Of a stretch of DNA of 45,575 nt, positions 21,090 to 23,547 are shown one piece after another. Made by a program: the position numbers and the translations under genes. Position 1 is the stretch's first letter. Each line of letters starts with the position of its first letter. Origin of the DNA: Methanotorris formicicus Mc-S-70 (GTDB lineage: Archaea; AGJL01; Methanococci; Methanococcales; Methanococcaceae); contig NZ_AGJL01000006.1 of NCBI RefSeq assembly GCF_000243455.1, forward strand, positions 1 through 45,575. The letters are read 5' to 3'. The notes under the pieces are model-generated. The model did no database searches, was not told the origin of the DNA, and saw only the letters and a program-made list of their open reading frames with translations.

Positions 21090-22777
<1,688 letters not shown>

Positions 22778-22821
22778 GCTATCACAATAATTTGGTTATT
22801 TAAAATTTTGGGGGTGTAAAA

Positions 22822-23547
22822 ATTCCAAAAACAACCCTAACTCTTACTTACGAATTTTTTAGCGCGGGTTGTGAAAATTCCAAGTCAGATGTGGCTATTG
22901 TTATCGATATTCTTAGGGCATCAACAACCATAAACACACTTTTACAATTGTGCAATGAGGTATATATAACTGATAGTATAGAGAAGGCAAACTCATATGA
23001 AAATACCATAAAAATTGGGGAAAGAAATGGCAAAAAAATTGAAGAATTTGATTTTGGCAATTCTCCAACAGATATTTTGAAGAATAAAGAAATAATATTG
23101 GAACATGTAAAAAATGGTGGAAAGGTTGTGTTAACAACAACAAACGGAACAAGGGTAATGAAAAGAGTTTTTAAAAATGCAAATTATGTTCTAATTGGTT
23201 CAATAACAAATGCAAAATATGTTGCTGAGAAAGCGGTGGAATTATCCAAATCGGGAATAACCCTTGTCCCATGCCATAGAAAAGGAACATTTGCAATTGA
23301 GGATGTAATAGGGGCTGGATTGATAGCAAGGTATATTGAAGAGATTAGCAAAGAAAAAACCAAAAATGAAGAAGTCCTCGCAGCAAAGTTATTAACAAAA
23401 GGAGATTGGAAGAGTTTAATCCTAAATTCAAATTCAGCAGATAACTTAAGAAATCTTGGTTATCACGGGGATTTAATGTTTTGTATCTCTGAGAATTCTC
23501 AAAATGTTGTGGGAATGTTTGATGGGGAAAAGGTGGTTAAGATTTAG
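22822..23547 (+). CDS. comB: 2-phosphosulfolactate phosphatase (coenzyme M biosynthesis), apparent ATT start
   Basis: Removes phosphate from 2-phosphosulfolactate, the second step of coenzyme M synthesis. Family blocks: VAIVIDILRASTTINTLL, GERNGKKIEEFDFGNSPT, VVLTTTNGTRVMKR and LVPCHRKGTFAIEDVIGAG. The first ATG/GTG/TTG in frame is GTG 22891, but that would cut off in-frame residues (TLTLTYEFFSAG...) that look like the family's first strand. Upstream the frame is open back to a stop at 22801 with no standard start; ATT 22822 lies five bases after GGGGTG. Therefore an AUU start is proposed (241 aa). Other readings: a sequence error or a truncated GTG start. Confidence 0.85.
   Translation: MPKTTLTLTYEFFSAGCENSKSDVAIVIDILRASTTINTLLQLCNEVYITDSIEKANSYENTIKIGERNGKKIEEFDFGNSPTDILKNKEIILEHVKNGGKVVLTTTNGTRVMKRVFKNANYVLIGSITNAKYVAEKAVELSKSGITLVPCHRKGTFAIEDVIGAGLIARYIEEISKEKTKNEEVLAAKLLTKGDWKSLILNSNSADNLRNLGYHGDLMFCISENSQNVVGMFDGEKVVKI

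Follow-up and report, generated by a model that had tools for sequence, protein, structure and literature searches.

Comparison of two Methanotorris genomes points to an AUU start codon for the archaeal gene comB

A few bacterial genes are known to start at AUU. The Escherichia coli gene infC, which encodes initiation factor IF3, has an AUU start and is autoregulated (PMC5472188, PMC1780047), and in E. coli pcnB an AUU start limits expression (Binns and Masters 2002, as cited in PMC1780047). The start of Streptomyces sigR, a GTC repressed by IF3, was missed by annotation (PMC5472188). A survey of 36 genome groups counts one AUG-to-AUU switch among 61,358 ancestral AUG starts, and non-AUG starts are reported to tend towards stronger Shine-Dalgarno (SD) sequences (PMC5622118). 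For Archaea, a review of initiation gives AUG, GUG and UUG only (PMC7531240); aIF1 discriminates against non-canonical starts, and less translation is expected from weaker ones (PMC6237735). We found no report of an archaeal AUU start in the literature searched, in which coverage was incomplete and most subscription journals lay outside.

We analysed the start of comB in a 45,575-nucleotide stretch of Methanotorris formicicus Mc-S-70 DNA (contig NZ_AGJL01000006.1; the whole stretch is referred to as the window) and concluded that comB of this species, and of the other genus member, is very probably translated from AUU (window position 22822). An AUU start codon would be common to infC and comB, but infC is the bacterial gene for IF3 whereas comB is an archaeal gene for a metabolic enzyme; because ComB is no initiation factor, one would not expect it to be autoregulated as infC is. 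Archaea are not known to have IF3, and archaeal initiation employs aIF1 and aIF2. pcnB is like comB in having an AUU start outside the initiation-factor genes (PMC1780047), although the limitation of pcnB was shown by experiment whereas we infer one for comB, the SD of which was among the strongest in our sample. sigR is also like comB in having a non-canonical start, but differs in the codon, the domain of life and the fidelity factor.

Started at ATT, comB occupies 22822-23547 on the plus strand (stop codon included) and would encode 241 residues. In profile searches the product scored 262.4 bits against TIGR00298 (curated cut-off 175.05) and 184 bits against PF04029 (curated cut-off 26.4), and judged by these matches it is a member of the ComB family, 2-phosphosulfolactate phosphatase. 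comA was found in the same genome, which makes the pathway setting of comB plausible. In the AlphaFold model of ComB (pLDDT 92.6), residues 5-8 form a strand. The nearest relatives of the protein with solved structures are 1vr0, 2z0j and 2yyv. Alignment of the model with 2z0j, 1vr0 and 2yyv using VIA-align gave Z scores of 32.7, 31.2 and 29.4 across the three, with 217-227 residues aligned and the fold of the solved members matched along the full length. These alignments start at the first residues of the solved chains (model residue 4 is matched to residue 1 of 2z0j, model residue 6 to residue 2 of 2yyv and model residue 2 to residue -1 of 1vr0), and beta-strand 1 lies at the N-terminus in all three.

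The comB frame opens after an in-frame TAA (22801-22803, plus strand), from which the codons run AAT TTT GGG GGT GTA AAA ATT(22822); from the ATT they read ATT CCA AAA ACA ACC CTA ACT CTT ACT TAC GAA TTT TTT AGC GCG, and continue as GGT TGT GAA AAT TCC AAG TCA GAT GTG(22891). This codon listing agrees with a preliminary description of the locus, which had noted no ATG, GTG or TTG in the frame until 22891, and with its placing of a strong SD five bases before the ATT: GGGGGTG (22810-22816, plus strand) is followed by TAAAA and then by ATT (22822-22824, plus strand), the inferred start codon, read as Met. The proposal made there that comB starts at this ATT gained support from the presence of the same ATT and SD in the congener and from the coding character of the N-terminus, both described below. 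The N-terminus predicted from the ATT start is (M)PKTTLTLTYEFF, and the residues upstream of V24 include TLTLTYEFFSAGCENSK. In both the window and the congener, full-length ComB lacks any canonical start able to yield it. The neighbouring gene (22106-22777, minus strand) is divergent, its start codon lying 44 nt from the ATT, and translation of comB from an upstream co-directional gene was rejected for this reason. A TATA-like sequence, TTTAAAAT, lies at about 22798 on the plus strand; it would place the comB transcript start too far downstream.

The SD pairs with the 16S 3' end GGAUCACCUCC, and both genomes carry the anti-SD GGATCACCTCC; the duplex energy at the comB ATT is -12.3 kcal/mol in both species. 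This is stronger than for about 98% of 229 sampled genes, each taken at its best canonical start, and ATT triplets with SD pairing this strong numbered two among the 3,480 on both strands of the window, comB's own being counted by construction. The strong SD fits the trend of stronger SDs at non-AUG starts reported in PMC5622118. The gap between GGTG and ATT is 5 nt in the window and 6 nt in the congener, which are the two commonest GGTG spacings at shared starts (68 and 30 of 114 orthologous genes, respectively, or 98 together).

The genus is represented by two genomes, the window's own (G000) and G001, which is a single contig and whose ComB protein is 90% identical to that of the window. 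G001 reads GGGGGTGTAAAAAATTCCG where the window reads GGGGGTGTAAAAATTCC, so that its comB has ATT at the same codon after an identical SD (GGGGGTG TAA AAA ATT CCG), with a one-base indel just before the ATT (an extra A in G001) that shifts the upstream phase between the species. In G001 the codon preceding ATT is AAA, and a TAA stands immediately upstream of this AAA, so that comB of G001 can start no earlier than AAA; of the near-cognate codons ahead of the conserved block, ATT alone is found in both species. Within codons 1-23 (22822-22890, plus strand), which encode the N-terminal beta-strand 1 and a loop, 8 codons differ synonymously and 5 non-synonymously between the two species, with 4, 2 and 10 changes at codon positions 1, 2 and 3; this third-position bias, together with the excess of synonymous over non-synonymous codons, indicates that codons 1-23 are coding. 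Comparison of the two species thus gives good support to an ATT start of comB, apparently a rare archaeal example that has been conserved. That the third base is the same in two species at 90% protein identity hints weakly that AUU itself may be selected. The G001 SD sits inside a tiny frame, ATG GGG GTG TAA, just upstream of comB and in phase with it (locus L002; G001:C1 about 571950-571965, minus strand); in the window its counterpart is TTG GGG GTG TAA, and comB lies in another phase.

Alignments with relatives in the order revealed a short N-terminal strand at this place (e.g. MKISISFDFF, MNVSISYDF, MITLCNKF), which bacterial and other archaeal family members also bear. The earlier suggestion that the codons ahead of GTG 22891 are real N-terminal sequence is therefore borne out both by coding-type substitutions relative to G001 and by strand 1 in homologues. 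Its expectation that the homologues' Met would fall on ATT 22822 held in part: the homologues do extend upstream of GTG 22891, but in the alignments the ATT lies 3-4 codons ahead of their Met. The ATT-started N-terminus is therefore 3-4 residues longer, and the ATT did not arise by a simple ATG-to-ATT change at the aligned codon. The comB start is ATG in most relatives, TTG in L006 (2220, minus strand), GTG in L009 (2307, minus strand) and ATT in this genus. No homologue examined in the order has its start where GTG 22891 lies, save that of G025, which has a shortened N-terminus, yet its own ATG.

A start at GTG 22891 (22891-22893, plus strand), giving a ComB of 218 residues with the upstream similarity as leftover sequence, has in its favour that this is the first canonical start, that it is also present in G001, that the TIGR00298 match begins there and that the N-terminus of G025 is nearly as short. 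It is nevertheless very unlikely, as the GTG is almost without an SD (-0.3 kcal/mol), the 23 codons ahead of it evolve like coding sequence, and its product would lack the beta-strand 1 seen in 3 of 3 solved homologues, while the strong and rightly spaced SD at the ATT would be left idle. With comB started at ATT, the GTG encodes an internal valine.

The remaining alternatives carry still less weight. Initiation further upstream, either ahead of the stop or in a different frame, with comB reached by frameshift or stop readthrough, would find some encouragement in the short G001 frame in phase with comB (ATG GGG GTG TAA AAA ATT). We consider this extremely improbable, since in the window the one-base indel puts the corresponding frame out of phase, and one readthrough mechanism cannot serve both species. 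A sequencing or assembly error masking an ATG at 22822, which the preliminary description had named as the finding that would count against an ATT start, could be imagined in a window taken from a 121-contig draft assembly, but its likelihood is negligible: the same codon is ATT, preceded by one additional A, in the independent single-contig genome of G001, and the comB ATT is therefore not a sequencing error.

Translation from the ATT would probably proceed as follows. The strong SD, GGGGGUG, 5-6 nt upstream, would set the 30S subunit with AUU in the P site, where the ordinary initiator Met-tRNA (anticodon CAU) would pair with AUU despite a third-position mismatch, and full-length, 241-residue ComB beginning Met-Pro-Lys would result. 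Met would thus be inserted at the AUU, where initiation would be weaker than at AUG, and the strong SD may compensate for the weak codon. It is plausible that AUU controls or limits ComB translation. A further suggestion, which adds to the AUU start and offers no alternative to it, is that AUU serves as a regulatory device, with aIF1, by penalising non-AUG starts, tuning ComB as IF3 does infC. aIF1 does work against non-canonical starts (PMC6237735), and both genomes have one SUI1/aIF1 gene each, but the strong SD suggests compensation and the conservation of ATT in two species is compatible with drift, and we regard such tuning as unlikely. The wider proposal that this is the first evolutionarily conserved archaeal AUU start, kept across the genus, with ComB set low via aIF1-dependent discrimination and the SD strengthened to match, is doubtful. 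With a conserved archaeal AUU start, nature would offer a way to test how aIF1 and aIF2 handle near-cognate codons under a strong SD. Gene finders confined to ATG, GTG and TTG would cut 23 residues, including a core strand, off ComB.

We surveyed 445 kb of G000, a sample that contains the window and makes up about a quarter of its genome, against 1.2 Mb of G001, both as stretches. Among about 240 non-overlapping reciprocal orthologous frames, comB was the sole real gene in which conserved coding sequence precedes all canonical starts in both species; there may be further cases elsewhere in the genome. Apparent survey matches near fragment ends and in L102 and L107 proved to be shadow frames antisense to real genes. 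As near-cognate starts, L098 was rejected because it has a GTG start with GGAGGT, and L110 and L096 because they have ordinary ATG starts.

Throughout the order comB has the same divergent neighbour, and a gene for an ArsA/Get3-like ATPase follows comB. In many relatives within the family, the start codons of comB and this neighbour are only 12-19 nt apart (loci L003-L007, L020, L021 and L023) and share a two-sided SD (TATCACGGTGA), and the divergent mRNAs must therefore overlap; in the genus of the window the gap is wider (window 22778-22821). Within genus g2 of the same family, G005 and G009 have both comA and PF04029, and five genomes (G002, G007, G013, G015 and G017) have comA (PF02679) with no PF04029 match, which suggests that the ComB step is replaced or missing in these five.
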